Shown piece by piece: positions 10,088-24,916 of a stretch of 27,964 nt of DNA. The notes beneath the pieces are model-generated. The model searched no databases. It was not told where the DNA came from and saw nothing but the letters and a program-made list of their open reading frames with translations. The translations under genes were made by a program, and so were the position numbers. Source of the DNA: a virus; IMG/VR virus record IMGVR_UViG_3300025870_000055, positions 1 to 27,964 of that record; one strand, 5' to 3'. The first letter of the stretch is position 1; each line of letters begins with the position of its first letter.

Positions 10088-11680
10088 TTATACGTTAGCT
10101 AAATCTTTTACATAGATTTTTCCGTAGAATTCAGGTCTAACCATTTTCTTAGCGTATCTCGTCATAACACCACGTCTTGGCGTGAAGTTAGTTGGGTCAT
10201 ACACTAAAGGTGTCATGATTAATGGTACATACGGTGCATAAACAGCTCCAGTTTCAAGGAAATTACTTCCTTTAAATCCTAACAAGATTTCGTTTGAAGT
10301 CATGTAAGGGTTTTTGTAAACTGTGTATCTGTTTGCAATAGAACCAACAGTAGTTACACCAGCTGCGAAAGATGTTGCATCTTTATCAGCAGAAACAGTA
10401 AATCCTGGGATAGATTCTAAAATTGTACATACGTCTGGAGAAGCAACAACGAAGTTTGCTCCACCTCTAAGTGTTAATTGGTGAATCTTGTTAGAAACTT
10501 TGTTAAGTTTCGCTCCAAGAGTCTGGAACCAAGAGTTCTTAGTATAAGCAGCTGAATTAGTTCCAGCAACCCATGCACCAGTTGAAGAGTTATACTCCTC
10601 ACCTAAAGATACAGACCAGTATTCAGTAGTTAAAGCGTTAGCTTTTAACATATCAAGGATTTCAAGGTCAATCTCTAATGAGATGTACTCTGATAACATT
10701 GAAGTTAATTCAGCTTCAGCATCAATACTGTGGTATGCATTTAAATCTTGTGCTAATTCAGGTGTCCATACAGCCTTTAGTTTTCTAGTCTTAGCAACAA
10801 TTGCTTCAGACTTTAATTCTAAATCAACTTCAGGAATACCAACATCAGCTCCAGTTTTATCTTCAAAATCACCTCTGTTTTCAGCAATTGGCTGTTGAGA
10901 ATGTTTTACAGTAAGAGCATCTACGAAATCCTTACCATCTCCACCTTTTGCGAAAAATTCGATGTTTGCACCATTTACTTTAGAGTAAGCTGGGTAAAAA
11001 GCATCTGCCGCTGAAAAATCAGAAGCTGAAATATAGAAACTTCTTACAGCATCTAAATCAGGTCTTGATAATCCTGCATGAGCGATTACAACTTTTTGAA
11101 TCTCGTTACCAGCAACTGATGCAGATAATGCAGAATCATATTGTACGTCTGCCCATGAAGCAGATGTAGCAGTTACAGAACCAGCAGCGATATCAATAGA
11201 TACATCGTTTGCAGAGTATCCAAATCTACCTTCACCGTATAAACCGTTTACAGCTGAATCAGTTGAACCTAAGTCAGCTCCAGTACCACCAAAAAGTGAA
11301 TTACCACTAAATCCAGGATTACCTGGTTGAGCAGTACCATACTTAAAGTCTAAATAAAAGATTAGACCAGAAGGAAGGTTCATTGGTTGTACACTAACGA
11401 ATTCTTTCGATGCAATTTCACCGAAGATACGTCTTACTAATGGAAGGGCTACCCCACTCCATTCTTCACTACCAGCTGATGTACCAGTTGCAGTGGATTC
11501 GTCAAGCAATTGTTTTGCTTGGTTTTCTAACAATACAGAAATCTGTGATTGTTCTCTTTCTCCTAAACCTTCTAAAAGTCCAGTTTGTTCCCATTTTCCT
11601 TTAAGCTCTCTTGTTTCAGCAAGCATAACTGATTGTGGGTTCTTTCCTTCCATTAGTTTAGATAAATCAAAATTTGCCAT
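10088..11680 (-). CDS. gp23: major capsid protein, gp23-like
   Basis: A 530-residue T4-type major capsid protein that forms the head shell. Family signatures are VSVQPMNLPSGLIFYLDF near residue 94-111, the KTRKLKAVWTPELAQDLNAY stretch near 296-315 followed by DAEAELTSMLSEYI, and the C-terminal GFKGSNFLETGAVYAPYVPL near 466-485. The N-terminal 61 residues look like a removable delta-domain. LLDE|STATG at 58-66 fits the gp21 rule of cutting after (L/I)-x-E, comparable to the T4 gp23 cut after Glu65. A strong AAGGAG site precedes the ATG. The gene follows the scaffold gene by 28 bases and is closed by a strong terminator. Confidence 0.95.
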   Translation of the reverse strand: MANFDLSKLMEGKNPQSVMLAETRELKGKWEQTGLLEGLGEREQSQISVLLENQAKQLLDESTATGTSAGSEEWSGVALPLVRRIFGEIASKEFVSVQPMNLPSGLIFYLDFKYGTAQPGNPGFSGNSLFGGTGADLGSTDSAVNGLYGEGRFGYSANDVSIDIAAGSVTATSASWADVQYDSALSASVAGNEIQKVVIAHAGLSRPDLDAVRSFYISASDFSAADAFYPAYSKVNGANIEFFAKGGDGKDFVDALTVKHSQQPIAENRGDFEDKTGADVGIPEVDLELKSEAIVAKTRKLKAVWTPELAQDLNAYHSIDAEAELTSMLSEYISLEIDLEILDMLKANALTTEYWSVSLGEEYNSSTGAWVAGTNSAAYTKNSWFQTLGAKLNKVSNKIHQLTLRGGANFVVASPDVCTILESIPGFTVSADKDATSFAAGVTTVGSIANRYTVYKNPYMTSNEILLGFKGSNFLETGAVYAPYVPLIMTPLVYDPTNFTPRRGVMTRYAKKMVRPEFYGKIYVKDLANV

Positions 11681-11708: not shown

Positions 11709-12830
11709 TTAATTAATGTTAGCAAGTTTCTTAAATCTATCCGCCATCGTGTTAGTTGATTCAGCTATTACTTCTTTCGAAGGAGCAGTTGATGCAACTG
11801 ATTTAGATGCGAATGATTCATTAATCTTACTTGATTTTACTTTTTTCTTAGTTCCATTAAACTTAAATGATTCAGCTAATGTGCTAAATACAAGTTTAAC
11901 TTCTCTAACGTTACCTGTTCTATCTAATGTTTCAACAACTTTCATTTTCTGGTCGTTAGTTAAATCATAAGAACGGAACAATTTGTTTGTATAAAGTAAT
12001 TTTGCGTTAAGCAAGTTTACTTCATTGATAGTAGATTTAAGTTCCTTGATTGTACTCATTGCTTCTTCTAGTTCAGCTTGAGCTTCTTCAAGTTCGTTAG
12101 TTTCCTCTACAACTTCTTCAGAAACTTCTTCATCAGATTCATCTTCTTCACCGTATCCCATTTCTTTTAGGATTTCGTTTAAGTCGATGTCTTCATCTAA
12201 GTCTTCTTCTTCTTCAGATTCTTCTACTTCTTCAGCTTCTTCTTCACCTTCTTCTGCAATTTCCTCTTCTTCAGATTCTTCACCTTCATTGTGGTGTTCT
12301 TCTTCGTGAGATTCGATTTCATCAGATGCGATATCAGATACTTCTTCAGCTTCTTCATCATCAAGTTCTTCTTCAAGTTCTTTAATGATTGATTCTAAAT
12401 CAAGTTCATCTTCATCAGATTCTTCTTCAGATTCCATAGTTTCTTCTACTTCTTCTTCTTCAGCTTCTTCTTCAGATTCTTCTTCAGCTTCTTCTTCTTC
12501 AGATACTTCTTCAGCGGTGATTTCTTCTTCACCATCTTCGTTGTACTCACCTTCAGATACTTCTTCTTCAGATACAGTTTCAGTTGATTCTTCAACTTCT
12601 TCTTTATCTTCGTCTTCAGTTACTTCAGCTTCTTCTACTACTTCGTTTTCTTCAATTTCTTCTGCCTCTTCATCAGCTTCTTCAATTTCTTGTTGAAGTT
12701 TCTGAGATAGAATAGATTGTAAACGAGGTGTAAAAGCTTCTTCTAAAGCTATTTTAGCATTTGCAATTGCAGTTTCTCTAACCATTTTTGCATCAGCGAT
12801 AGCTTCTTTTAACAAATTTGAGTTTGCCAT
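11709..12830 (-). CDS. gp22: prohead scaffold protein, gp22-like
   Basis: A 373-residue protein that would form the core on which the capsid assembles. The N-terminus (LLKEAIADAKMVRETAIANA, about 5-24, then ALEEAFTPRLQSILSQKL) is typical of gp22-type scaffolds. Residues about 45-245 are extremely rich in Glu, a low-complexity acidic stretch encoded by GAA/GAG runs. A coiled coil follows (about 250-275), then a basic C-terminus ending in ADRFKKLANIN. Likely gp21 cut sites are KINE|S (after Glu338) and VIAE|S (after Glu357), consistent with scaffold destruction before packaging. The gene has the longest untranslated leader in the window. Its immediate position before gp23 matches T4 order. Confidence 0.9.
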   Translation of the reverse strand: MANSNLLKEAIADAKMVRETAIANAKIALEEAFTPRLQSILSQKLQQEIEEADEEAEEIEENEVVEEAEVTEDEDKEEVEESTETVSEEEVSEGEYNEDGEEEITAEEVSEEEEAEEESEEEAEEEEVEETMESEEESDEDELDLESIIKELEEELDDEEAEEVSDIASDEIESHEEEHHNEGEESEEEEIAEEGEEEAEEVEESEEEEDLDEDIDLNEILKEMGYGEEDESDEEVSEEVVEETNELEEAQAELEEAMSTIKELKSTINEVNLLNAKLLYTNKLFRSYDLTNDQKMKVVETLDRTGNVREVKLVFSTLAESFKFNGTKKKVKSSKINESFASKSVASTAPSKEVIAESTNTMADRFKKLANIN

Positions 12831-13008: not shown

Positions 13009-13311
13009 TTATTTTTTTGTATCTTTATTTTCTTTTTTTGGATTGTTGGGCTTTTTCTTTCGTTTTTTAGTAAACATTTTAACAGTTGTATCACCTCCCT
13101 CTATCTTTTCTAAGATAGTTTGTTTTTGTTGTTCTCTAACTGCTAATTGTTTTTCTCTTCTACGAACTGTTGTTGGTTTTTTGTAGTATCTTCTTTCTCG
13201 AAGTTCTAAAAGATGTTCAGAGTCATTTACTAATCTTTTATATTTTTTAAGTGCTCTGTTGATATCTCCTTTGATTACCTTAACAGAAACAATTGCTTTC
13301 TTTTTGCTCAT
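13009..13311 (-). CDS. rpsU: phage-encoded ribosomal protein bS21 homologue
   Basis: A 100-residue homologue of small-subunit ribosomal protein bS21. The core (about 9-62) matches the family: INRALKKYKR near 17-26, then ELRERRYYKKPTTVRRRE at about 36-53, comparable to the E. coli stretch RRREFYEKPTTERKR. Cellular bS21 is about 65-71 residues; this copy has a Lys-rich C-terminal extension (KKRKKKPNNPKKENKDTKK). It probably enters host ribosomes, where bS21 sits beside the anti-Shine-Dalgarno end of 16S rRNA, and could bias translation toward phage mRNAs. Phage-borne bS21 genes are known from other uncultured and marine phages. Unlike its neighbours it has no hydrophobic-Asn-Glu sites. It stands alone between the minor head genes and the scaffold, with its own motif upstream and an oddly close Shine-Dalgarno. 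Confidence 0.9.
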   Translation of the reverse strand: MSKKKAIVSVKVIKGDINRALKKYKRLVNDSEHLLELRERRYYKKPTTVRRREKQLAVREQQKQTILEKIEGGDTTVKMFTKKRKKKPNNPKKENKDTKK

Positions 13312-13370: not shown

Positions 13371-13715
13371 TTAAGAACCTTTACCAGTTCCTGATTTTCT
13401 TCCTTTTGTGTGTGTAGAAACGTTTATGGGTTTTTTACCTTGTCCTGCTGATTGAGAACCACCACGATTAGATTTGTTCTGTGCTGCTCTTTTTCTACGA
13501 GTTGCAGATTCTTTTTCTTTTTTACTCATGGATTTAGCTTTAGAAGCAGGAACACATTTAGCATATCCTTTCTTCTCACCACTTGTACCACATGGAGGAT
13601 GTTTACCACTTTTATCTTTCTTACCGATATTAACCCATTTGGATTTAAACCAGTTACGAAGGTCTTCATTGGTTGTTTCTTCAAATATCTCGTCTATGAT
13701 ATTTTGTAATCTCAT
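13371..13715 (-). CDS. small basic protein of a marine-phage family
   Basis: A 114-residue, strongly basic protein. After an N-terminal MRLQNIIDEIFEE segment comes a conserved-looking module: LRNWFKSKWVNIGKKDKSGK at about 19-38, HPPCGTSGEKKGYAKCVPAS near 39-58 with two cysteines, and SKKEKESATRRKRAAQ near 64-79. I associate this pattern with small uncharacterised proteins widespread in marine phages and cannot confirm a family name. The N-terminus resembles the short leaders of neighbouring proteins, so packaging into the head is plausible, and the basic tail would suit DNA contact. The start overlaps the previous stop (TAATG). Function unknown. Confidence 0.7.
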   Translation of the reverse strand: MRLQNIIDEIFEETTNEDLRNWFKSKWVNIGKKDKSGKHPPCGTSGEKKGYAKCVPASKAKSMSKKEKESATRRKRAAQNKSNRGGSQSAGQGKKPINVSTHTKGRKSGTGKGS

Positions 13716-14863
13716 TACTTACCTAATTGGAATAATTTTTCTTCTGCACCAGCATTGGTTCTGTAATCGTAATGTTTTGGATTTACTCCAAAATCTTTTA
13801 GGGATTTTTCTAACCAAATTCTATATTTGTTTTTTCCATACTTTTTTTCCATTACAGAAAGTACATCATAAAATTTAGTTTCACTATTATTTACTTTTTT
13901 TACTAATTTAGTTATTTCAGATTTATCTTCTACCATTGGATTATATCCTTGTGGTGTTGATTCACTAAATTGTTTAGTAATCATTTTAAACATCTTGTTA
14001 TTAGGTTTACCAGCAATTGCTGATACGAATGCCATTCTATCTTTTAGATTTCCTTTTTTTACAAAGTTAAAAAGTTTTTTTGCATCAATCTTATGTGAAT
14101 CGATAAAAGCATCAACCGCAGAACCACGAGTACCAGTGAATCCAGCAATACCCATAGCTAATTTACTAGCTTCGTTTACTGATTCAAATGTTTTCTTCTT
14201 AGACTTAGACACAATTTTTAAATCTTTTTCTTTTGCTAAAATGTATTTTTCAAATCTACCATCTTTACCTAAGTTAACTTTGTATTCACCATTATCATAT
14301 CTAACTACATCACCAACAAACTTTTTCTTACTCTTAGGGTCTATGTATTGAACTCTTGCATCGTAGAACTTTGGATTTATTCTTTCGTTTACTGATTCGT
14401 TCTTAGAAACCAATTCATCTACATCTTTATGAACATCTTTATAGTTGTTAAATTTTTGTTTACGAATTGCACTATACAAGGCGATTGTATATTTTTGTGA
14501 GTTGTTGTGGATTCTTCTTTTAATAAATTCTGCAGGTTTTTGTTTTAGATTTGGTTTAGTACTCATTTCTAATGCATTTACCATTGATGAGAATTCTTGA
14601 AATGATTCAAATGATTTTCTTTTATTACCATCTGAAATGAACTCCTCTATATACGATATAGCCGAATCCATGTTTCCTTTATGTGCATCAAGTAATTTCT
14701 GTGCACCTTTATCATTTTTTTCTAAAGCTCTTTTGAAGTTTCCAATTTGAGTTTTAGCTAATCCTTTATTATTAAAGTAATCTCTTTTATCGAAAATAGC
14801 ATATACTTTTTCGAATTCCTTGTTTGGAGATTTAAATCTTTCGTTGATTAACATTTTTTCCAT
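13715..14863 (-). CDS. modular minor head protein, 382 residues
   Basis: Unknown function, basic and largely helical. It appears built of modules joined at hydrophobic-Asn-Glu sites: MLINE|R at the N-terminus, SVNE|RINPKF after Glu160 and SVNE|ASKLAM after Glu231. The middle piece (about 161-222) is a small beta domain (VGDVVRYDNGEYKVNLGKDG). The next (about 232-300) has GIAGFTGTRGSAVDAFIDSH and AIAGKPNNKMFKMITKQF. The C-terminal piece (about 318-382) is helical. It overlaps the upstream gene by 16 bases. The ATG at 14863 has almost no room for a ribosome site, so the ATG three codons on (14854) may be the true start. Proposed as a gp21-processed internal head protein, by inference. Confidence 0.7.
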   Translation of the reverse strand: MEKMLINERFKSPNKEFEKVYAIFDKRDYFNNKGLAKTQIGNFKRALEKNDKGAQKLLDAHKGNMDSAISYIEEFISDGNKRKSFESFQEFSSMVNALEMSTKPNLKQKPAEFIKRRIHNNSQKYTIALYSAIRKQKFNNYKDVHKDVDELVSKNESVNERINPKFYDARVQYIDPKSKKKFVGDVVRYDNGEYKVNLGKDGRFEKYILAKEKDLKIVSKSKKKTFESVNEASKLAMGIAGFTGTRGSAVDAFIDSHKIDAKKLFNFVKKGNLKDRMAFVSAIAGKPNNKMFKMITKQFSESTPQGYNPMVEDKSEITKLVKKVNNSETKFYDVLSVMEKKYGKNKYRIWLEKSLKDFGVNPKHYDYRTNAGAEEKLFQLGK

Positions 14864-15600
14864 CCCCCACCTGCTGCTTTATATTTCTTAGCTGCCCAAC
14901 CATTAGCATATGCTGATGGATAAACATCAAATTTCTTTTTTGCTTGTGATTTATATGAACTCCACTTACTGGCATCAGTAGGACAATTTTCCTCCATTAG
15001 AGTTTCAACCTTCTGACCGAACTCATATAATGCAGTTTCTTGTTCATTCAATTCATTTACTTCTTTTATTGTAGTAGTGATAGAACCATCAGCGTTTCTC
15101 ATTGATATAGATACAGGCTCTTCGTTTAAAGATTCATTACATCCACCCTCTGTTGTTCCATTACATCCACAACCACAATCTTCTTTAGATTCGTTCATTC
15201 CTAAACGTTGTTTCATTTGGTCTTCTGAAATCTCACCAATCTTATAGTATCTTGAAAGTATGTGTCCCATATCTTCATATAATCCACCCATTCTTTGGTC
15301 AAGTGCTTTGGCTTCAAGAGCAACTTTATCGAATTGTTTACCCAACTTATCCAATTCACTCATGTTTCTTTTAACCGTATGTTTATCAAACCAATCATCA
15401 CCCTCTTGAATTGCTAATGTTCTAGCTGCTTCTGTAATACCACCAAGTGTTTCTGCCACTTGAATAATATCAGATTTTCTATCCATTGATTCTTGGTACT
15501 TGTTGTAAGTAGAAACGATTTCTAAGAAGTGTTTTTTAACTTCTAAAGAAAGGGGTCTCTTTTCTTCTGATTCGTTCATTAGTTGGGTTAATTTAATCAT
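14848..15600 (-). CDS. modular minor head protein with Cys cluster, 250 residues
   Basis: Function unknown. The leader MIKLTQLMNE|S closely resembles that of the 368-residue neighbour. Residues about 11-130 are helical. A compact cysteine cluster (DCGCGCNGTTEGGC, 141-154) follows and is flanked by GMNE|S (after 137) and SLNE|E (after 160). A short beta piece ends in ELNE|Q (after 186). The C-terminal piece (about 206-250), with KKKFDVYPSAYANGWAAKKY and a Gly-Trp-rich end, is a domain I recognise from many uncharacterised marine phage proteins. The start has AGGAG seven bases upstream. The module borders coincide with putative gp21 sites, suggesting packaging and processing. Whether the cysteines bind metal is unknown. 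Confidence 0.7.
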   Translation of the reverse strand: MIKLTQLMNESEEKRPLSLEVKKHFLEIVSTYNKYQESMDRKSDIIQVAETLGGITEAARTLAIQEGDDWFDKHTVKRNMSELDKLGKQFDKVALEAKALDQRMGGLYEDMGHILSRYYKIGEISEDQMKQRLGMNESKEDCGCGCNGTTEGGCNESLNEEPVSISMRNADGSITTTIKEVNELNEQETALYEFGQKVETLMEENCPTDASKWSSYKSQAKKKFDVYPSAYANGWAAKKYKAAGGGWKKC

Positions 15601-15612
15601 GGGATTCTCCTA

Positions 15613-15828
15613 TTATTTAATTCTTTTTAATATTTTATGAAGATATTGCAATCTATCAATAGCATCTTTACAATGGTCCATTGCTTCTAGTATTGCACTT
15701 TCATCAATCATTTCTTCAATAAGTTCAATATCGTTCTGGACTGCTCCAACTGTACCCTTTACAACTTTAACAAGTTTCTTATCAGGTTGTTTATATGGTG
15801 CTTCATTCATTATATCTATTAATTTCAT
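15613..15828 (-). CDS. small helical head-cluster protein, 71 residues
   Basis: A short, fully helical protein of unknown function. It begins MKLIDIMNE|APYKQP, the clearest example of the shared leader, with the putative cleavage after Glu9. The rest (VGAVQNDIELIEEMIDESAI and a basic end ILKRIK) reads as a two-helix hairpin. A good AAGGAG site precedes the ATG. If cleaved it would yield a roughly 62-residue internal protein, comparable in style to the small T4 internal proteins. That comparison is inference. Confidence 0.65.
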   Translation of the reverse strand: MKLIDIMNEAPYKQPDKKLVKVVKGTVGAVQNDIELIEEMIDESAILEAMDHCKDAIDRLQYLHKILKRIK

Positions 15829-15841
15829 AATGATTTTCTCC

Positions 15842-16948
15842 TTAAAATAATTTTTTTAGTTTACTATCTTTGTAAGTATCAGCGTAATACCACTTCTTAT
15901 CTTTCATATTGTATAAATATACAAATTCTGCTCCACCACTTCTATCGGCATCTTTTATATATGATTCAATATCTTTGGAATCACCTTTCATTGGTTGACC
16001 ATTTTTGTAATATTCAATATCCTTATCATCAAAGATTCCTCTTGCTCCACCCATCTTGATTAGTTTAAGAACATCTTTATCACTTTTCATGTGATGTTTT
16101 AAACCTGGTTTCATATTTGATGGATAACCATCGTAGTGAACGTATGCAGAAATAATCTTACCATTTCTACCAATTACACCAACTTGAGAACGAGTTCCTT
16201 CGTTAATCTGAACTGATTCAGGTATCATATCTGCAATAGATGTTGTTGATTCATTCTTCTCATCAAAGATTGATTGTATTTTTGCTGCTAATTTATGTGA
16301 ACCATTCATTTTTAAATCGAATGCAATTGCATCGATTGATTCTTGTCCATCCCAAGATGATTCTCCAGTTGCTGAATGAGCGATATCATCTGTTCCATCA
16401 CTTGAATCACCAAATGATGAACCCCATGCAGTACCTTTTTTCCATTCATCATATTCATCTGAGAACATATCTGGTTTGTTTGGGTCATCTGAAGGATTCT
16501 TAGCAAGTTCAGGATTATCTTCTAAAACTGCAATAAGAGCTCTTGATTCAGAATGAAAGTTTGCATCAGTTAACGCTTCAACAGCTGCTTGGGACATTCT
16601 TTTTTCGTATTCTTCTTTACCTAATTTCTGTGGTGTAACTCCTAAACTTTGTGCTTTTTTACGAACAACTTTGTTTACTTGAGGATTACCAGCTCTTGGT
16701 TTAGATGGTTCTGATTTAGGTTCATCTCCTTTAGGTTCTTCTTTATCCTTGTTAAAGATGTTCACTTTAGGAGTATCTTTTTTAGAATCATCACCTTTAG
16801 AATCGTTATCATCTTTTTTATCATGAGTACCTGCTTTTACTGCAGAATCTCTTGCATCTTTAGATTTAAATACAGAAACCGCACCACTATCTTTATTGAT
16901 TGCTGTGTATGTTTCTTCTTCTTTTAAAAGGTCAGTCAATTTAATCAT
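15842..16948 (-). CDS. modular minor head protein, 368 residues
   Basis: Function unknown. The leader MIKLTDLLKE is followed by a short module (AINKDSGAVSVFKSKDARDS, about 17-36) and an acidic and basic linker (45-85). A helical middle module (about 90-230) contains QAAVEALTDANFHSESRALI. After ADMIPE|SVQINE|GTRS the C-terminal module starts exactly at Gly251: GTRSQVGVIGRNGKIISAYV then HYDGYPSNMKPGL. That GTRS...HxDGYP pattern also occurs as a stand-alone small phage protein in my experience, so the cleavage-like site sits at a true domain border. It starts inside the end of the 62-residue gene (ATGA overlap). The role is proposed as a packaged protein; nothing catalytic is recognised. Confidence 0.7.
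   Translation of the reverse strand: MIKLTDLLKEEETYTAINKDSGAVSVFKSKDARDSAVKAGTHDKKDDNDSKGDDSKKDTPKVNIFNKDKEEPKGDEPKSEPSKPRAGNPQVNKVVRKKAQSLGVTPQKLGKEEYEKRMSQAAVEALTDANFHSESRALIAVLEDNPELAKNPSDDPNKPDMFSDEYDEWKKGTAWGSSFGDSSDGTDDIAHSATGESSWDGQESIDAIAFDLKMNGSHKLAAKIQSIFDEKNESTTSIADMIPESVQINEGTRSQVGVIGRNGKIISAYVHYDGYPSNMKPGLKHHMKSDKDVLKLIKMGGARGIFDDKDIEYYKNGQPMKGDSKDIESYIKDADRSGGAEFVYLYNMKDKKWYYADTYKDSKLKKLF
15912..15921 (-). promoter_or_regulatory. possible internal promoter-like motif
   Basis: An exact TATATTTATA copy lies within the last 80 bases of the 368-residue gene, about 84 bases before the 71-residue gene. It could serve that gene or be chance, since it also encodes VYLYN residues of the protein. 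Confidence 0.3.
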
Positions 16949-17133
16949 AATTCCTTTGTCTCCGTTTTATGTGTATATAAATCAAGTTTACCATCTTCGG
17001 TAATCTTAACTTCATAATTAGTTTTTCTAATATCGTTGTGACCACCTTTATATGGAGTAGTACCAACTTCTCGGGTTACTTTCCCAAGTTTAATTTTATT
17101 TTTGGACATATAGTCCTGTACATTAAATGCCAT
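16945..17133 (-). CDS. small protein after the prohead protease
   Basis: A 62-residue protein of unknown function, basic, with MAFNVQDYMSKNKIKLGKV at the start and a two-strand piece NYEVKITEDGKLDLYTHKTE at about 39-58. It starts three bases after the protease stop, and its end overlaps the next start by four bases, so it is surely translated with its neighbours if real. It lacks the hydrophobic-Asn-Glu signature. Tight packing between genes is the main evidence. Confidence 0.6.
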   Translation of the reverse strand: MAFNVQDYMSKNKIKLGKVTREVGTTPYKGGHNDIRKTNYEVKITEDGKLDLYTHKTETKEL

Positions 17134-17136
17134 AAC

Positions 17137-17730
17137 TTAAGTTATTTCTGTTATAATTTCTCTCATCAAATCTTGTGATTTACACCACTCGTTACAAACT
17201 TCACCTTGTTTTACTAGTTGTTTGTTAACAGATTCGTTCATCGGAGTCATAAATGCTCCATGTGTTGATGGATTAGAAACAAAATCCCAACCAATCAATT
17301 CAAAATCTTCACCTACTTGAACTTTACCACCTGATAGAGGTTCTACTGAACCCATACCTCTTGATGATATTCCTAAAAGGATTCCTGCTTTAAGTAGTTC
17401 TTTTAAGATGTTACCACTTGGAGTTGGTAATATCTCAACTGTTCCTACTAAATCATCGTTATCCCAATGTATCTCTCTTACGTTATGAGATACGTTCTTT
17501 AGGTTGATTACAGAAGAATCTGGATGGTCTAATTCACCAAGTGCTCTTCTTTCTTTAATAAGTGTTTCGTATTTTTTAGCTTCTCTCATCAAAATTTGTT
17601 TTGGATATATTCTTCCATTTTGATTTTCAGCACCTGCTCGTTGTAAAATACCTTTAACGATAGTTCTTCCACTTTCGTCTTCGTTTACTTTACCTTCGAA
17701 TAGTTTTGTTTCTATTAATAAATTTCCCAT
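17137..17730 (-). CDS. gp21: prohead maturation protease, gp21-like
   Basis: A 197-residue serine protease of the T4 gp21 / prohead protease family. It is incorporated in the prohead core and cuts scaffold, capsid and internal proteins after hydrophobic-x-Glu. Counted from the chosen start, the conserved GELDHP is at 65-70 with His69, and GISSRG is at 120-125 with the probable catalytic Ser. Self-cleavage-like sites are KVNE|D (after Glu17) and PMNE|S (after Glu166). I chose the ATG at 17730 rather than a TTG four codons upstream because GGGGAG sits just before it and the upstream small gene ends there as TAATG. It lies between portal and scaffold genes as in T4. Confidence 0.92.
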   Translation of the reverse strand: MGNLLIETKLFEGKVNEDESGRTIVKGILQRAGAENQNGRIYPKQILMREAKKYETLIKERRALGELDHPDSSVINLKNVSHNVREIHWDNDDLVGTVEILPTPSGNILKELLKAGILLGISSRGMGSVEPLSGGKVQVGEDFELIGWDFVSNPSTHGAFMTPMNESVNKQLVKQGEVCNEWCKSQDLMREIITEIT

Positions 17731-17906
17731 TATGCTCCCCAAGTTTTTCTTCGTTTAAATAAATCAAAAAAGATTGCTGATACTTCCTGTCTGATGATTT
17801 TTCTTATTAAATCTTTATCAGACTCGTTGAGTTTCTCGTTAAGTTCTCCTTTTTTAAAACTAACGATTTCTTCATTGATTATATCATATAATTCTTTTTT
17901 AGTCAT
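17730..17906 (-). CDS. 58-residue head-cluster protein before the protease
   Basis: A short gene easily missed. It begins MTKKELYDIINEE, runs through GELNEKLNES and continues with RKIIRQEVSAIFFDLFKRRK before ending in TWGA. Its stop overlaps the protease start as TAATG, a coupling typical of real phage genes. It fills what would otherwise be a 185-base gap in a tightly packed region. Three hydrophobic-Asn-Glu tripeptides in 58 residues match the pattern in its neighbours. The amphipathic second half suggests a coiled or core-associated protein, and the position resembles T4 gp67/gp68 between portal and protease. Function not known. The Shine-Dalgarno is weak (AGGAT, far upstream). Confidence 0.7.
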   Translation of the reverse strand: MTKKELYDIINEEIVSFKKGELNEKLNESDKDLIRKIIRQEVSAIFFDLFKRRKTWGA

Positions 17907-17916
17907 TATATTATTA

Positions 17917-18405
17917 TTATCCTATTTTCTTTAAATAGTTAGTTTGTGTTGCAATCCAATCTTCACCTTTTAATCCAGCCATTTTTGCAGCTTTCTTAAT
18001 TGCTTCAACTGTATTTCTTGCTTTCACTTTATACTTATTCTTCTTAGATAATTTAACACCATTAAGATTCATATCTGAAAAACTCATTTCCCAAGTTGCA
18101 AATCCTTCATTAATTGATTCCTCAACTGATTCCGTTTTATCTTCTTTTTTTTCTATTGCTTTTTGAAGTGCTGGTGGTAATTTTTTCTGAGCATCTGTTA
18201 ATTCAGAAACTTGTTCTTGTTTTGCTCCTTTACCTTTCCAAGTTTTTTCTATGTTGTTAAAGAATTTCTTTTTTTCTTCATCAGACATACTAGGAATAGA
18301 TTTACCAGCTTTTTCTAAAGCTCTTTTGAAAAACTCTTGATATTCCGATTCTTCTATCATAGTTTCTTTAACTATGTTTTTTAATGCTTCTCTTGTTATT
18401 TTCAT
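17917..18405 (-). CDS. modular minor head protein, 162 residues
   Basis: Function unknown. The leader MKITREALKNIVKETMIEE|S is followed by a helical module (SEYQEFFKRALEKAGKSIPS, about 20-39, then KKKFFNNIEKTWKGKG), a pattern I recognise from uncharacterised marine phage proteins. A short LTDAQKKLPPALQKAIEKKE segment follows at about 69-88. After ESINE|G (Glu100) a new module begins, GFATWEMSFSDMNLNGVKLS, then KARNTVEAIKKAAKMAGL to the end. The start has AGGAG seven bases upstream and overlaps the previous stop as ATGA. It occupies the T4 gene 67/68 position and is proposed as a prohead core or internal protein. Confidence 0.7.
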   Translation of the reverse strand: MKITREALKNIVKETMIEESEYQEFFKRALEKAGKSIPSMSDEEKKKFFNNIEKTWKGKGAKQEQVSELTDAQKKLPPALQKAIEKKEDKTESVEESINEGFATWEMSFSDMNLNGVKLSKKNKYKVKARNTVEAIKKAAKMAGLKGEDWIATQTNYLKKIG

Positions 18406-18881
18406 TTTTCTATCTCCTGTATAGTTCGAGCGATATTAACCAATCTCTCCTTTATCTTATAAATATGTTTGTTTGTTCTTTTCCAATACTGATTGGAATC
18501 CAACTCATTCATTGTTTTGATTTTATTATACCAATTGAAAAACTTTTCAGTTTCTCTAAGTTGATACTTAAGTTCTTTTAAACCCATTGCCATCTTCTTA
18601 TGAGGATGCATTGTTTCATCGTTTTTTAATTCTAACCAACGATTTACTGGTCTTTTGGATTTAGCTTCATTTAGCTCTTCATCCATCTTACCAACTATCT
18701 TCATACCAAATTGAGTTGAAATTTTTTTCTTACGTTTTTTATCTTTAGCACCACCATCAGAAAATGCAGCAGGAGTATTGTACCCACCAACTGCACCAGT
18801 TCCTGTCATTTCATCCAATTCGTGTTCTACTTCTTGGATTAGTTCATCTAAGAATTTATTAAGATTTTTTTCCATTGACAT
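18402..18881 (-). CDS. minor head protein with GYNTPAAF motif, 159 residues
   Basis: Function unknown. An acidic helical leader (KFLDELIQEVEHELDE, about 9-24) precedes TGTGAVGGYNTPAAFSDGGA (26-45), a motif I recognise from many marine phage head clusters. A basic patch (KDKKRKKKIS) follows. After EELNE|AKSK (Glu72) comes a helical C-terminal module (RPVNRWLELKND to the end). The start has AAGGAG seven bases upstream and overlaps the preceding gene by 23 bases. The layout of acidic leader, conserved Gly-rich motif and basic helical end fits a prohead core component, but no activity is evident. Confidence 0.7.
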   Translation of the reverse strand: MSMEKNLNKFLDELIQEVEHELDEMTGTGAVGGYNTPAAFSDGGAKDKKRKKKISTQFGMKIVGKMDEELNEAKSKRPVNRWLELKNDETMHPHKKMAMGLKELKYQLRETEKFFNWYNKIKTMNELDSNQYWKRTNKHIYKIKERLVNIARTIQEIEK

Positions 18882-19731
18882 TTTTTATCTCCTTAATTAA
18901 CTCATAAGACATCATTAAAGCTGAAACTTGTTCATCGGTAACTTTCTTACCAATTTTCTGTTTTTTCAAAACATTTATTGTTTCTCTCAACTTTATTTTT
19001 GTAATCTTATCTTTCATACCTTTATACGCTTCGTGTAAAGATGTGATAGTTTTAATTAATTCTGATTCATAGTATTCATTGAACTTAGATGTATTGGTAA
19101 CATTATTAATATATTCTCTTAATAAACCTTTTTGAGATTGATTTAAAGTTGTATATTTTTTGTTAAAAGTTTCAATAAGAATTTTATATGTCAACAATCG
19201 AAGGTCTTTCTCTTGTTTTTTATATTCTTCAACTAATTTATCTTGTTTAGCTACTTTAGTAGTTTGGGAAGTTGATGAGATGTGCTCAACAAGAGTAAGT
19301 TTAGAATCAAATACATCTTTAATATCAAGAATATCATTCTTTTTACCTTCAAATAGTTTATGTATTGAAGCTAAAATTTTGTAGTTTGTTACCGGGGAAG
19401 ATAAGAAATTATTAATTTCGAATGTTTCTTTGATAGACTTAATAAGATTATACTTTTCTCGTTGGAGTTTAGTATAATTTATTTTACTGTGTGCTTCCAA
19501 TATAGCTTCAATAAACTTCTCAGCCTTTGATTCTGTATTGTACTTTTCGTTTATAAGTAGGTTGAATAATCTAAGCTCTTTTGATAACTCAGTTCCTCTT
19601 CCATAGAATTCTTTGATTATTCCTTTTGATTTTTCCTCACTACCATTGAGTATTTCAACCGTAATTTGTCGAGTTAAAAGTTCAAAAAGAAAACCCGTAT
19701 TCTTAAATTTTGAATGTTTTATTTTTCTCAT
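18859..19731 (-). CDS. helical protein after the portal, 290 residues
   Basis: Function unknown. Almost entirely helical and Lys-rich, beginning MRKIKHSKFKNTGFLFELLT, with EYKKQEKDLRLLTYKILIET near 169-188 and KLRETINVLKKQKIGKKVTD near 247-266. It lies directly downstream of the portal gene behind its own promoter-like motif, in the T4 gene 67/68 region. I associate this N-terminal pattern with an uncharacterised protein that follows the portal in marine T4-like phages. It carries only one hydrophobic-Asn-Glu tripeptide (LINE|K near 63), so it may be a core protein rather than processed cargo. Confidence 0.7.
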   Translation of the reverse strand: MRKIKHSKFKNTGFLFELLTRQITVEILNGSEEKSKGIIKEFYGRGTELSKELRLFNLLINEKYNTESKAEKFIEAILEAHSKINYTKLQREKYNLIKSIKETFEINNFLSSPVTNYKILASIHKLFEGKKNDILDIKDVFDSKLTLVEHISSTSQTTKVAKQDKLVEEYKKQEKDLRLLTYKILIETFNKKYTTLNQSQKGLLREYINNVTNTSKFNEYYESELIKTITSLHEAYKGMKDKITKIKLRETINVLKKQKIGKKVTDEQVSALMMSYELIKEIKNVNGKKS

Positions 19732-19802: not shown

Positions 19803-21530
19803 TTAATCTTCGTCTAGTATGTTGTTTTCGTCCAACATTCCTTTCATTTCATGTAAATACTTTCGTTTTGCCGCTATACCATTGATATATTTAATTGCTT
19901 TATCTTCTGATGTTCTTGAACGTTTTTTCGTTCTTTCGTTATCACCAAGTGGGTCTCTACCAAGTGGATGTTTATCTTTTCCATATGTTCCACCTTCTCT
20001 TGGTCTACCACCTTTATCTTTTATTTCGTTCTTGATATCTTCAAGTTGTTCTTCAATATCACTTGGTTCATCATCTTCCATTGCAGGGTCACTACCTTCA
20101 TCTTCAATAGAACGAAATCTGAATCTATCTTTTAAATCATCTAACATCGCTACTCTTTGTTCATCTTGTTCACCACCACTTAGTTTGAATATATTTTCAT
20201 ATACCCAATCCTTAGATAACATATTTAATCCTTGAATATCTTGAGCTAATCTAATTTTCTCACTCCATAAGTTTACTTTTTCTTGTTCGTAAATTGTAGA
20301 TGGATTAACTAATGATAATTCAAAATTAGTCATTTCAGAATCTGTAATTCCTTGTGCATATAAATGAACAATTGCAATTTTAGATAATTCTGAAACTACT
20401 GTTCTTTGTATTCTCTCTATTGTTCTTGCAAATCTAACATCTTCTGCTGCTAATGTTGCTTTACCATTTACATTTTCTTCATATCCTAAATATGCTCTAG
20501 GAACTTTTAATGCTGCAAATAATTTGTTTTTTAGATAATCAATATCATCGATGGTTGCATACTCTAATCCTGCAAGATTATCAATAGATGTTCCACTATC
20601 ACCACCACGAACAGGAAGATAGAAATCTTCTGTTAGGTTTTGCATATTATACTTTAAGTTATAATCACCAGTATTTCTATCAATGAATGGAACTTTCTTC
20701 ATTTTATTGATAATTCTTTGCATATAGTTATCTACCTCTGTTGGAGGAATGTTACCAATATCAATTTTGAAAACTCTCTTTTCAGGTGCTCTCATAATTC
20801 TATGGATTAACATTGCATCTTCCATTAAAGATAATTGTTTCCACAATCTTCTACCATTTTCAATCATTGATTTTCCGTATGGTAACCAGTTTGTATCTGC
20901 TAATAATCTAAAGTGAGCAACTTCAAAGTTTTCGTATTGTTCTTTTCCATTTGGGTCTTCAGTAATTTTAAACTTTACTGAGTTTGGATTCGATGGGTCT
21001 GTTCTTTCTAATCTTTCTGTGTTGTAAACTGAATGAGGTGTTACGTTAACAATACCTTTACCTTCAGCGATTTCTAAACCTAAGAAGAAATCTCCATACT
21101 TACACATATTTCTTACCCAAGGCCATAAGTTGAATTCAACATTAAGAACATCATAAAATAAGTTATTTAAAATATCTTGTACTTGTTGATTATCAGAGTG
21201 AACCAATAAAGTATCACCAAATTCATTCTTTAGTGTTGATTCATCTGCGTATATATCAAGAGCTGATGCTAATATTGGGTCATTATCCATAGCATCATAA
21301 TCTCTAAAAACTTCTCTACGAACTTGTTGGTATGCCATTGATTGAGCACCACCTGCTTGTTCGAAAAAACTTTTTTGTAGTTTCGTGTACCTATCTCTTA
21401 AAGAGGATAGATTTGTTTGTTGTCTTTCATCGGTATCGAAAACTTTTCTCTTACCATCTTTATCGACAGTAACGACTGCCTGAGCTCTGAAGAGTTTTGT
21501 TAACCTACCAAAAAATGAAGTATCTGCCAT
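19803..21530 (-). CDS. gp20: portal protein, gp20-like
   Basis: A 575-residue T4-type portal protein, forming the dodecameric ring at one vertex through which DNA is packaged and to which the neck binds. Family features are ALDIYADESTLKNEFGDTLL near 89-108, RNMCKYGDFFLGLEI near 139-153, VAHFRLLADTNWLPYGKSMI near 204-223, RIMRAPEKRVFKIDIGNIPP near 244-263 and LKVPRAYLGYEENVNGKATL near 343-362. The C-terminal 90 residues are acidic, then basic (DKGGRPREGGTYGKDKHPLG), a disordered-looking tail. Length is close to T4 gp20 (524). No hydrophobic-Asn-Glu tripeptide was found, as expected for a protein that must survive maturation. Confidence 0.93.
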   Translation of the reverse strand: MADTSFFGRLTKLFRAQAVVTVDKDGKRKVFDTDERQQTNLSSLRDRYTKLQKSFFEQAGGAQSMAYQQVRREVFRDYDAMDNDPILASALDIYADESTLKNEFGDTLLVHSDNQQVQDILNNLFYDVLNVEFNLWPWVRNMCKYGDFFLGLEIAEGKGIVNVTPHSVYNTERLERTDPSNPNSVKFKITEDPNGKEQYENFEVAHFRLLADTNWLPYGKSMIENGRRLWKQLSLMEDAMLIHRIMRAPEKRVFKIDIGNIPPTEVDNYMQRIINKMKKVPFIDRNTGDYNLKYNMQNLTEDFYLPVRGGDSGTSIDNLAGLEYATIDDIDYLKNKLFAALKVPRAYLGYEENVNGKATLAAEDVRFARTIERIQRTVVSELSKIAIVHLYAQGITDSEMTNFELSLVNPSTIYEQEKVNLWSEKIRLAQDIQGLNMLSKDWVYENIFKLSGGEQDEQRVAMLDDLKDRFRFRSIEDEGSDPAMEDDEPSDIEEQLEDIKNEIKDKGGRPREGGTYGKDKHPLGRDPLGDNERTKKRSRTSEDKAIKYINGIAAKRKYLHEMKGMLDENNILDED

Positions 21531-21568: not shown

Positions 21569-21961
21569 TTACCACTTTCTACAAGACCAGTATCTTGCTT
21601 TATGTCTTGGACCGGGTGAATCACAATTGTGTCTAGCTCTGAATGCTTTTCTTGCATCTGGATTATTCTTTCGAATAGACATTGTTTTTTCTCCTGATTT
21701 CTTTGCTGAACTACCACCATGTCCAAAATTAACTTTTACAACATTACCTTGAGGGTTTTTAACATATACTTTAAATTTTTTCACATCACCTTGCATTGGT
21801 TTTCCAAGTTTAACTGTTCTACCTTGATACTCAGCTTCATTCATATCAGATTTGTATTCTTTCATGAACTTCGAAAATTCTTGTATATCATCATAGTTTT
21901 CTACTATGTACTCATTACAGTAGTTTTCGTTTTCATTTATTAAATCTATCATCGAAATCAT
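21569..21961 (-). CDS. small basic protein between terminase and portal
   Basis: A 130-residue protein of unknown function. The leader MISMIDLINE|N and an acidic helical stretch end at SDMNE|AEYQ (Glu42). After that comes a compact basic domain: GRTVKLGKPMQGDVKKFKVY, VKVNFGHGGSSAKKSG, then FRARHNCDSPGPRHKARYWS and CRKW. This Cys/His/aromatic end is a pattern I recognise from small uncharacterised phage and large-virus proteins. The cleavage-like site lies at the domain border. It has an AAGGAG site, a promoter-like motif 20 bases ahead, and occupies the place where T4 has the sheath and tube genes 18 and 19. Confidence 0.7.
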   Translation of the reverse strand: MISMIDLINENENYCNEYIVENYDDIQEFSKFMKEYKSDMNEAEYQGRTVKLGKPMQGDVKKFKVYVKNPQGNVVKVNFGHGGSSAKKSGEKTMSIRKNNPDARKAFRARHNCDSPGPRHKARYWSCRKW

Positions 21962-23586: not shown

Positions 23587-24276
23587 CTATTTTTTTCCTA
23601 GTTTCCAATACATAGAACCACCAACGAATGGTTTATACTCACCAAGTTGATTTGATATACCAACATTTAAACCATAAATTTTCATTTTCTTAGTTTTAAA
23701 CAAGATGTTACCACTAATATTGTTAAATCCATTTGTTTGGTCAATTCCTGCACCAAATCCATAATAGAATTCATTCTTTGGTAATTCTTTTACTATTGTA
23801 GTATTATAAACGGTTGGAATCTTAAAATACCAATCTATTTCTCTTGATTCAATTCTGTTTTGTGAAATGATATCAGTTAAAATACCGAATCCTAAATCTC
23901 CACTTGGTTTGTTACCCAATGAATCGGTAACTACATCAGGAAAATCATATGCTAAACTTAATGTATCCTTAACTGTTATTTTTGCAAAGTAATCTTTTAT
24001 AATAGCAAGTGAATCTACATCTACTGGTATCTCTACTTCCTTAATTACTTCTTTTGTAATGTACTTTGGTACATACTTTGTTACCTTAACTTCTTTTTCT
24101 ACATATATGGTATCAGTTTTTGATTCTAACAACTCATATTGTTCTCCATCTACATCTACAATGGTTTTATCACCAGTATCATCTCCACATCCTCGTAAAA
24201 ATAAAATAATTCCAAATAAAAGAAGGATTAATATTTCTCTCCACCTTTTAATTAATAAACTAAATATAATGCTCAT
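23587..24276 (-). CDS. membrane-anchored coiled protein, unknown role
   Basis: A 229-residue protein. Residues 1-12 are basic/hydrophobic, followed by a strong membrane segment (about 14-27, ILILLLFGIILFL) ending in RGC. That could be a transmembrane anchor or, less likely because of Arg at -2, a lipobox. Residues about 45-82 are a charged repetitive stretch (TIYVEKEVKVTKYVPKYITK) likely to be extended or coiled. The C-terminal 60 residues are beta-rich with alternating aromatics (YYGFGAGIDQ, PFVGGSMYWKLGKK). Membrane, rod and beta-domain order is compatible with an envelope-spanning protein such as a spanin, but no lysis gene is nearby. It starts inside the end of the preceding gene with an AAAGGAG site. 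Function not established. Confidence 0.6.
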   Translation of the reverse strand: MSIIFSLLIKRWREILILLLFGIILFLRGCGDDTGDKTIVDVDGEQYELLESKTDTIYVEKEVKVTKYVPKYITKEVIKEVEIPVDVDSLAIIKDYFAKITVKDTLSLAYDFPDVVTDSLGNKPSGDLGFGILTDIISQNRIESREIDWYFKIPTVYNTTIVKELPKNEFYYGFGAGIDQTNGFNNISGNILFKTKKMKIYGLNVGISNQLGEYKPFVGGSMYWKLGKK

Positions 24277-24916
24277 AGTTTTTCTCCTTTAATACATCAA
24301 ACGCTAAATTACGCTTCGATTCAAGTTCAGTAATTTCACCTTCTCCGGTATTTATCATGTCTTGAATTTCTTTTTTAGTATCTTCAACTGAATTTGGTAA
24401 ATCCCATCTTTCGGTACTACCATTTTCATTTACATACTCATAAAAAGGTCTAACATCTAACAAAGATTGTTTTAGTTCTTCTAATTTTGTTTTACCAAAT
24501 ACAATCATACGAGTCCATACCTTATAATTCTGATATTCTTCAAATACACCAGCAGTTCTTAAATCATGTTCTCTATCAACAGTACAATTTATACAAAATC
24601 CGTTATTTTGAATAAACTTTAAATCTTTTTCAGATTTAGATATTGTTTTACAATCAGAATTGTTACATTTTGATTTTTCTGCTAAATATTTTCTAATTTC
24701 TTGTAACGCTTCGGAATTTTTACCCGTCTTTAAAACATATCCTTCTTTTTTCTCATATTTGTTATGTTCATCTTCCCAAACATCACCAACATTACGAGCT
24801 TCTTCCTTCTTGGTATAACCAACGGTAGTATTTTTATCATACTTTCCAGTTTCTACCATATCTACCAACTTTCTACGAGTTGGATGCATATACTTCTTCT
24901 TAAATTCTTTACCCAT
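24260..24916 (-). CDS. zinc-binding protein upstream of the terminase, unknown role
   Basis: A 218-residue protein. The N-terminal part contains HPTRRKLVDMVETGKYDKNT near 11-30 and GDVWEDEHNKYEKKEGYVLK near 44-63. Four cysteines, CNNSDC near 84-89 and CINC near 108-111, form a probable zinc knuckle. The rest is helical with VWTRMIVFGKTKLEELKQSL near 133-152. I recognise the general pattern from uncharacterised marine phage proteins but know no function. Its place just before the terminase pair suggests a DNA-packaging or recognition role, and a stand-in for the missing small terminase is conceivable but unproven. No Shine-Dalgarno site is visible. A promoter-like motif lies 28 bases upstream. 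Confidence 0.65.
   Translation of the reverse strand: MGKEFKKKYMHPTRRKLVDMVETGKYDKNTTVGYTKKEEARNVGDVWEDEHNKYEKKEGYVLKTGKNSEALQEIRKYLAEKSKCNNSDCKTISKSEKDLKFIQNNGFCINCTVDREHDLRTAGVFEEYQNYKVWTRMIVFGKTKLEELKQSLLDVRPFYEYVNENGSTERWDLPNSVEDTKKEIQDMINTGEGEITELESKRNLAFDVLKEKNYEHYI

Follow-up and report, generated by a model that had tools for sequence, protein, structure and literature searches.

What is the role of a short tripeptide, a hydrophobic residue followed by Asn and Glu (phi-N-E), that recurs in the minor head proteins of an uncultured, marine T4-like phage? These proteins are encoded at 13371-19731 of a 28-kb fragment, IMG/VR record IMGVR_UViG_3300025870_000055, the whole of which (27,964 nucleotides) is referred to here as the window. 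A sequence-only reading of the window had noted that many of them also begin alike, and proposed a large packaged proteome, targeted by the common leader and processed by the phage's own gp21. It is highly probable that the proteins are polyproteins which the leader targets and gp21 cuts, and that they form a variant of the T4 internal-protein system. The computed support consists of enrichment of the motif, its order specificity, leader spacing, module boundaries, the position of sites in linkers and repeated DNA at the joints. That the protease cuts at these sites, that the virion contains the products and that some modules are delivered by injection to act early are, all three, what we infer. 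Below, phi denotes a hydrophobic residue and a slash within a motif the proposed cut.

Only the 28-kb record exists for this phage, and genome-wide comparisons were therefore made on relatives; a near-identity search of the annotated phage collection with the window gave no match. Named relatives are Microcystis phage Mel-JY01 (protease 64% identical), Flavobacterium phage immuto (52%), Rhodothermus phage RM378 and an uncultured 484-kb phage. From IMG/VR, close relatives were collected as 80 loci by the protease, 80 by the right-edge module and eight whole contigs (49 to 287 kb). One alignment for structure prediction leaves out the Mel-JY01 row. The sample represents one clade, mostly metagenomic contigs, with genes from a simple open reading frame (ORF) caller.

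The tripeptide is strongly enriched in the head cluster. About 25 copies had been reported in the named proteins; exactly 25 were counted with the gene at 24260-24916 included, and three more, overlooked at the time, lie in a 58-residue gene (17730-17906). Together these proteins hold 28 phi-N-E in 3,822 amino acids (aa) vs 5.7 expected after correction for composition protein by protein (Poisson p 1.9e-11), and 13371-19731 alone holds 20 vs 2.98 expected by composition (p 7.4e-11). Terminase, portal and capsid protein do lack the motif, as stated earlier (0 in 1,635 aa). Because only 1.7 are expected, absence in one genome proves nothing alone; pooled over six relatives, the three proteins hold 3 phi-N-E vs 10.1 expected (observed/expected 0.30). 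A 1,879-aa tail gene also holds three. Equal density in unrelated genes, named earlier as a result that would speak against the proposal, is not seen in the relatives. The minor head clusters of six IMG/VR contigs contain 141 phi-N-E vs 35.4 expected (3.99) and their 805 other genes 335 vs 254.9 (1.31), while a further 276-kb relative, G007, gives 4.77 in the cluster vs 1.24 elsewhere.

Such an excess could be a mere compositional habit of flexible linkers rich in Glu, Asn and Ser that are never cut. The joints are indeed rich in Glu and Ser at P4-P6, and non-phi-N-E is also somewhat frequent (42%) near breakpoints, the points where homology to another protein stops. The expectation is, however, corrected for the composition of each protein, and the order of the residues matters: in 261 proteins left after dereplication at 75% identity, among which kin proteins remain, observed/expected is 4.51 for phi-N-E, and the permutations of the same three residues are essentially unenriched, phi-E-N being depleted (phi-E-N 0.44, N-phi-E 0.79, E-phi-N 0.99, N-E-phi 1.56). 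The controls phi-N-D and non-phi-N-E give 0.74 and 0.78. Among the 20 possible middle residues, compared in the six contigs, none approaches the enrichment of Asn; Arg (2.67) and Lys (1.99) come next. The Ser, Ala or Gly that had been seen after the Glu is strongly preferred, with phi-N-E-[SAG] at 9.8 in the head cluster, 1.17 elsewhere and 13.3 in the dereplicated proteins. Leaders end at the same motif, and phi-x-E followed by Ala or Ser occupies the maturation column of the capsid protein (both described below). An uncut linker habit is thus quite unlikely as the full explanation.

A gp21-type protease is encoded inside the cluster. The putative prohead protease, of the S77 type (17137-17730, minus strand, as are all listed head and tail genes of the window; 197 aa from the ATG at 17730), matches PF03420 (E 4.3e-27, score 95.3 vs cut-off 27) and the head maturation protease family phrog_207 (4.8e-49), and its His and Ser contexts, GELDH and SSRG, align with GELNH and SSRG of T4, in agreement with the earlier statement that the phage has its own gp21. 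It contains phi-N-E at 17680-17688 and 17233-17241, and an N-terminal LLIE/T placed as near the N-terminus of T4 gp21, where LIE-9 has been named (PMC9026906). The enzyme is predicted to cut after phi-x-E. The capsid protein (10088-11680), described earlier as motif-free, has no phi-N-E but does have LLDE/S at the position of the T4 gp23 cut FLTE/A, from which LDE/S (aa 59-61, 11498-11506) is predicted as its cut site. The same column reads LLDE/S or LLDE/A in this clade, LISE/A in Mel-JY01, IVSE/A in immuto and LLKE/A in the 484-kb phage, and cleavage of the capsid protein is probable as well. The rule is therefore better written as phi-x-E with a small residue behind it, the cargo proteins of this clade favouring Asn in the middle. 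That Asn is strictly required is ruled out by LDE in the capsid protein and LKE in leaders; phi-N-E stands as the favoured form of the site, but the motif is looser than first proposed and its middle Asn a preference.

The four alike starts of the sequence-only reading were found as written: MIKLTDLLKE in g368 (15842-16948; leader 16919-16948), MIKLTQLMNE in g250 (14848-15600; leader 15571-15600), MKLIDIMNEA in g71 (15613-15828; leader, cut as MKLIDIMNE/A, 15802-15828) and MISMIDLINE in g130 (21569-21961; leader 21932-21961). Further leaders are MTKKELYDIINE in the 58-aa gene, which has three phi-N-E, MRLQNIIDE, a leader-like start in g114 (13371-13715), and MEKMLINE in g382 (13715-14863), likewise leader-like (MLINE). 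The right-edge gene begins, at its true start in relatives, with MNELSKFLVE. The likeness to a T4 targeting peptide holds at the level of spacing: the form M-x-x-phi-x-x-phi-phi-x-E, hydrophobic at 4, 7 and 8 with Glu at 10, is that of T4 IPII and IPIII (MKTYQEFIAE), in whose capsid-targeting sequence residues 4 and 7 matter for targeting and 8 and 10 for processing (PMC9026906). Ten-residue N-termini with these positions are present in g368, g250 and g130, while g71 has a version shorter by one residue. Searched with a regular expression, 27 of 94 cluster genes carry the leader, vs 22 of the 1,024 remaining genes (p 2.6e-18; shuffling predicts 8.7 in the remaining genes); by analogy with T4, some of these 22 probably encode cargo from other parts of the genome. 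The 238 leader-bearing proteins gathered belong to many families, so that the leader is common to otherwise unrelated proteins. In strain G006 the body of g71 is identical to that of the window and the leader, MIKLAQLMNESSMNE, is different, with identity starting near the proposed cut. By the T4 parallel, the leader would direct packaging and be removed. The leaders of the proposed tagged set are thus real, but the proteins that bear them are better read as polyproteins of exchangeable cassettes.

Leader genes also lie far from the head cluster, in G007 at 230-246 kb (L223:11133-11465, L223:15980-16300, L224:4764-5582) and in G001 (L091:4927-5547, L091:16709-17587, L093:13078-13650). Those outside the cluster include proteins like AAA_33, zeta toxin or polynucleotide kinase and like 2H phosphoesterase, and are candidates for further packaged cargo.

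That the sites fall at domain joints gains support from homology breakpoints, exact module boundaries and a structure model of g382. Of the 303 internal phi-N-E in the 261 proteins, 186 (61%) are found <=8 residues from a breakpoint, BLAST breakpoints being fuzzy, vs 16% of phi-N-notE; for phi-A-E and phi-L-E the value is about 20%. Modules of stand-alone leader genes recur embedded in longer proteins of other phages, with the boundary right behind the Glu. MIKLKSLIQE/GTHSHVG (L052) corresponds to embedded ...QINE/GTRSQVG in g368 of the window, MKLLDILNE/GKEP to ...SVNE/GKEP, and MIRLQKILNE/VLLKE/GGAYGHM to ...NINE/SKLLQE/GGAYGHM. At the joint, phi-N-E is found in 59 of the 102 embedded copies, where random windows show 11%, and phi-[NDKSR]-E in 81, vs 29%. 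AlphaFold models g382 (mean predicted local distance difference test score 82) as four folded modules, with residues 156-163, 225-231 and 302-311 as linkers. The phi-N-E of g382, at 6-8, 158-160 and 229-231, all fall within the 17% of residues in or beside low-confidence segments, the last two inside the first two linkers. A fold search of g382 against the PDB gave no match below 0.001; module 165-222 shows a likeness to an SH3-like small barrel (TMt about 0.7, E about 0.2) that is a hint only.

These joints also bear on whether the leader merely targets proteins to the core, with cutting confined to leader and scaffold and the multi-module proteins remaining whole in the head. T4 offers precedent, since its internal proteins lose only a short N-terminal peptide and gp22, gp67 and gp68 are degraded (PMC9958956), and the multiple cuts of SPN3US were located in propeptides (PMC10052503). 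Yet sites past residue 15 show much the same enrichment as the full set (4.35 vs 4.51 in the 261 proteins), so leaders are not the cause of the enrichment, and embedded modules begin at the same residue as the stand-alone leader genes. We consider it unlikely that the multi-module proteins stay intact.

Alternatively, the joints may be kept mainly as DNA, a short repeat mediating module exchange to which the peptide is incidental. The window has two copies of the 15-bp joint GAATCAGTAAACGAA (Glu-Ser-Val-Asn-Glu), one at each internal joint of g382 (14171-14185 and 14384-14398). G007 has seven exact in-frame copies (loci L217 and L223), and the 15-mer is present in 68 of 236 loci; wherever genes were examined it is in frame, at joints of non-homologous proteins. 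Codon usage at phi-N-E sites of the window and relatives is biased as well (AAC 55% vs 37%, GTA 79% vs 47%, ATC 47% vs 22%), the AAC and GTA figures likewise favouring a role as DNA. Against this, 173 phi-N-E sites comprise 141 distinct 15-mers and 95 distinct peptide 5-mers; as most sites carry other DNA, the peptide is the common element, and it is also found in leaders and in the capsid protein, where exchange is not seen. Conservation chiefly as DNA is very improbable. An exchange role is compatible with cleavage as an additional one: the GAATCAGTAAACGAA joint looks copied and may help exchange as microhomology.

Several observations weigh against the reading as gp21-cut polyproteins. Enrichment is weaker in G008 (2.84 in the cluster vs 1.34 elsewhere) and G003 (2.52), and about one fifth to one quarter of the cluster sites are expected by chance. 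Besides non-phi-N-E, phi-D-E (55%) and phi-K-E (45%) are frequent near breakpoints; part of the signal is therefore linker composition. The middle Asn is kept at 62% of aligned positions, other Asn at 56%, and is therefore not essential; the Glu is kept at 85%, other Glu at 71%. Some sites (those of g290, and aa 124-126 of g159) may lie in folded parts. The model of the right-edge protein, g988, is poor, low-confidence zones making up half of it.

The proposed course of events for gp21-cut polyproteins is as follows. Leader-bearing cargo and core precursors would enter the prohead core through a leader that corresponds to the capsid-targeting sequence of T4. The gp21-type protease would mature the capsid protein after LLDE and cut the others after phi-x-E (chiefly phi-N-E, but with D, K and other middle residues too), removing the leader and splitting multi-module precursors at the joints into separate small proteins and enzymes. 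The freed modules would stay with the DNA. Modules are swapped among genes and phages at the joints, where GAATCAGTAAACGAA probably also serves as microhomology, and some, such as RNA-repair and nucleotidyltransferase modules, may be injected to act as infection begins. In T4, Ip1-3 have only the leader in common and are injected inhibitors of GmrSD (PMC12373910), and by this analogy some freed modules should act in the host at once.

The enzyme modules are best seen in the right-edge gene, g988 (24977-27964, 3' part of an ORF open at the right edge), apparently a giant cassette polyprotein, with phi-N-E at 27227-27235 and 26192-26200. Complete orthologues in relatives have about 1,000-2,104 aa, with MNELSKFLVE or a similar leader first and the same 400-residue module last. 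Interchangeable modules lie between these ends: cytidylyltransferase-like (GRFQPxHxGH; PF01467), zinc-ribbon-like, HD (PF01966), DUF5661 and an HExxH stretch. The HD module of g988 (aa 432-510) matches PF01966 (3.4e-7), its nearest relatives being, weakly, tRNA-processing polyA polymerase chains. A further interchangeable module, a PolyA_pol/tRNA nucleotidyltransferase head (PF01743, E 1.7e-29), is found in the G006 orthologue, in a part beyond the window edge. The C-terminal module (24977-26173), which starts at [LI][LI]xE/GGAYGHM, is ligase-like at motif level only (EKTDG, EGIVF and KL in the window; KxDG, EGIVF and KL conserved), and L210 and L211 encode it as a leader gene of its own, 414 aa long (MIRLQKILNE/VLLKE/GGAYGHM). 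A Pfam search with this module at threshold 5 gave no match, and a fold search, on a poor model, nothing significant. Together with the polynucleotide-kinase-like and 2H-phosphoesterase-like leader genes, the enzyme modules apparently indicate RNA repair. One could go further and suppose that each joint is both a protease site and in-frame microhomology, so that swapped effector modules are freed in the capsid for injection. The cargo would then include a nucleotidyltransferase and a pre-delivered kit for RNA repair (CCA/polyA polymerase, HD, ligase-like, polynucleotide-kinase-like and 2H-phosphoesterase-like modules), plausibly directed against RNA-cutting or nicotinamide adenine dinucleotide (NAD)-depleting host defences. 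This extension is tentative, and we would sooner expect it to fail than to hold.

In the order of transcription, the window encodes the 3' part of the giant gene, two genes, terminase, g130, portal, g290, g159, g162, the 58-aa gene, the protease, g62, g368, g71, g250, g382, g114, an S21-like gene, the acidic scaffold-like protein, the capsid protein, and neck and tail genes. In g130 the joint MNE/A (21836-21844) precedes a C-terminal phrog_7595 module. The immuto orthologue of the portal protein (19803-21530) is annotated as T4-like gp20, and g290 (18859-19731), a minor head-cluster protein with two phi-N-E of doubtful function, is kept beside the portal in relatives. Of the two phi-N-E in g159 (18402-18881), at 18666-18674 and 18504-18512, the first joint receives cassette insertions in relatives, and the module behind ESINE/G (18106-18114) of g162 (17917-18405) is there missing or replaced. 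The phrog_1987 module of g368 (aa 251-362) directly follows QINE-250 (QINE/G, 16199-16207); searches with it found weak matches only, in cyanophages and streptococcal phages, with no function indicated. At its N-terminus g368 shares the ETFTATNKKSGKTSVFKSKDSRDAAIKAGTH module of L124:4737-6980 (G005), which weakly resembles MC1, a chromosomal protein of archaea (E 2.4e-4, narrowly short of the Pfam cut-off), and may be a DNA-binding module in the head. The protein g250 has joints at 15190-15198, 15121-15129 and 15043-15060 and a DUF5872-like C-terminal module below the Pfam cut-off, and g114 a basic, Cys-containing module (phrog_23735). The acidic protein (11709-12830; three phi-N-E), called scaffold-like by composition and its gp22 position, has no family match. 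Between cargo genes and scaffold lies the ribosomal protein S21-like gene (phrog_21469, 13009-13311); in Mel-JY01 an annotated S21 likewise adjoins the protease gene. The G008 contig (213,601 bases) is probably a complete, circularly permuted genome, because both its ends fall within the protease gene. Repeats such as TTTCGTATATTTGTA, in several copies each in G007, G001 and G008, contain TAnnTTTG like Bacteroidetes promoters, which suggests a Bacteroidota host; in the window this -7 box is not enriched (41 vs 41 expected).

Knowledge of the T4 internal proteins has come protein by protein, and most injected phage proteins have no known function. The leader and the joint motif would provide a sequence rule to predict, from genome data alone, head-packaged proteins and their fragments. 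The joints suggest a way for phages to recombine injected effectors without disturbing packaging, and the modules are suggested as anti-defence candidates. A literature search for phage head polyproteins found none in the open-access papers searched, subscription papers not being covered.

In T4-type phages, conserved borders flank the variable cassettes that are exchanged; in the present system the border lies within genes, in frame, and encodes the presumed protease site. With IPI, IPII, IPIII and Alt of T4 the system shares leader spacing (MKTYQEFIAE vs MIKLTDLLKE), a homologous protease, a cut after phi-x-E (here predicted) and genes in variable sets. It differs in having several modules and joint sites per precursor, which can reach about 2,100 aa, a far larger number of leader genes, Asn preferred before Glu, and apparent RNA-repair and nucleotidyltransferase modules. 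In giant phages, the prohead protease of phiKZ and of SPN3US (gp245; A-x-E or S-x-E) cleaves numerous head and ejected proteins behind a Glu, some of them with several sites and shared N-termini (PMC5694885, PMC10052503). There the multiple sites sit in long, discarded propeptides, and exchangeable modules freed from one precursor, as proposed here, are not described in the text read.

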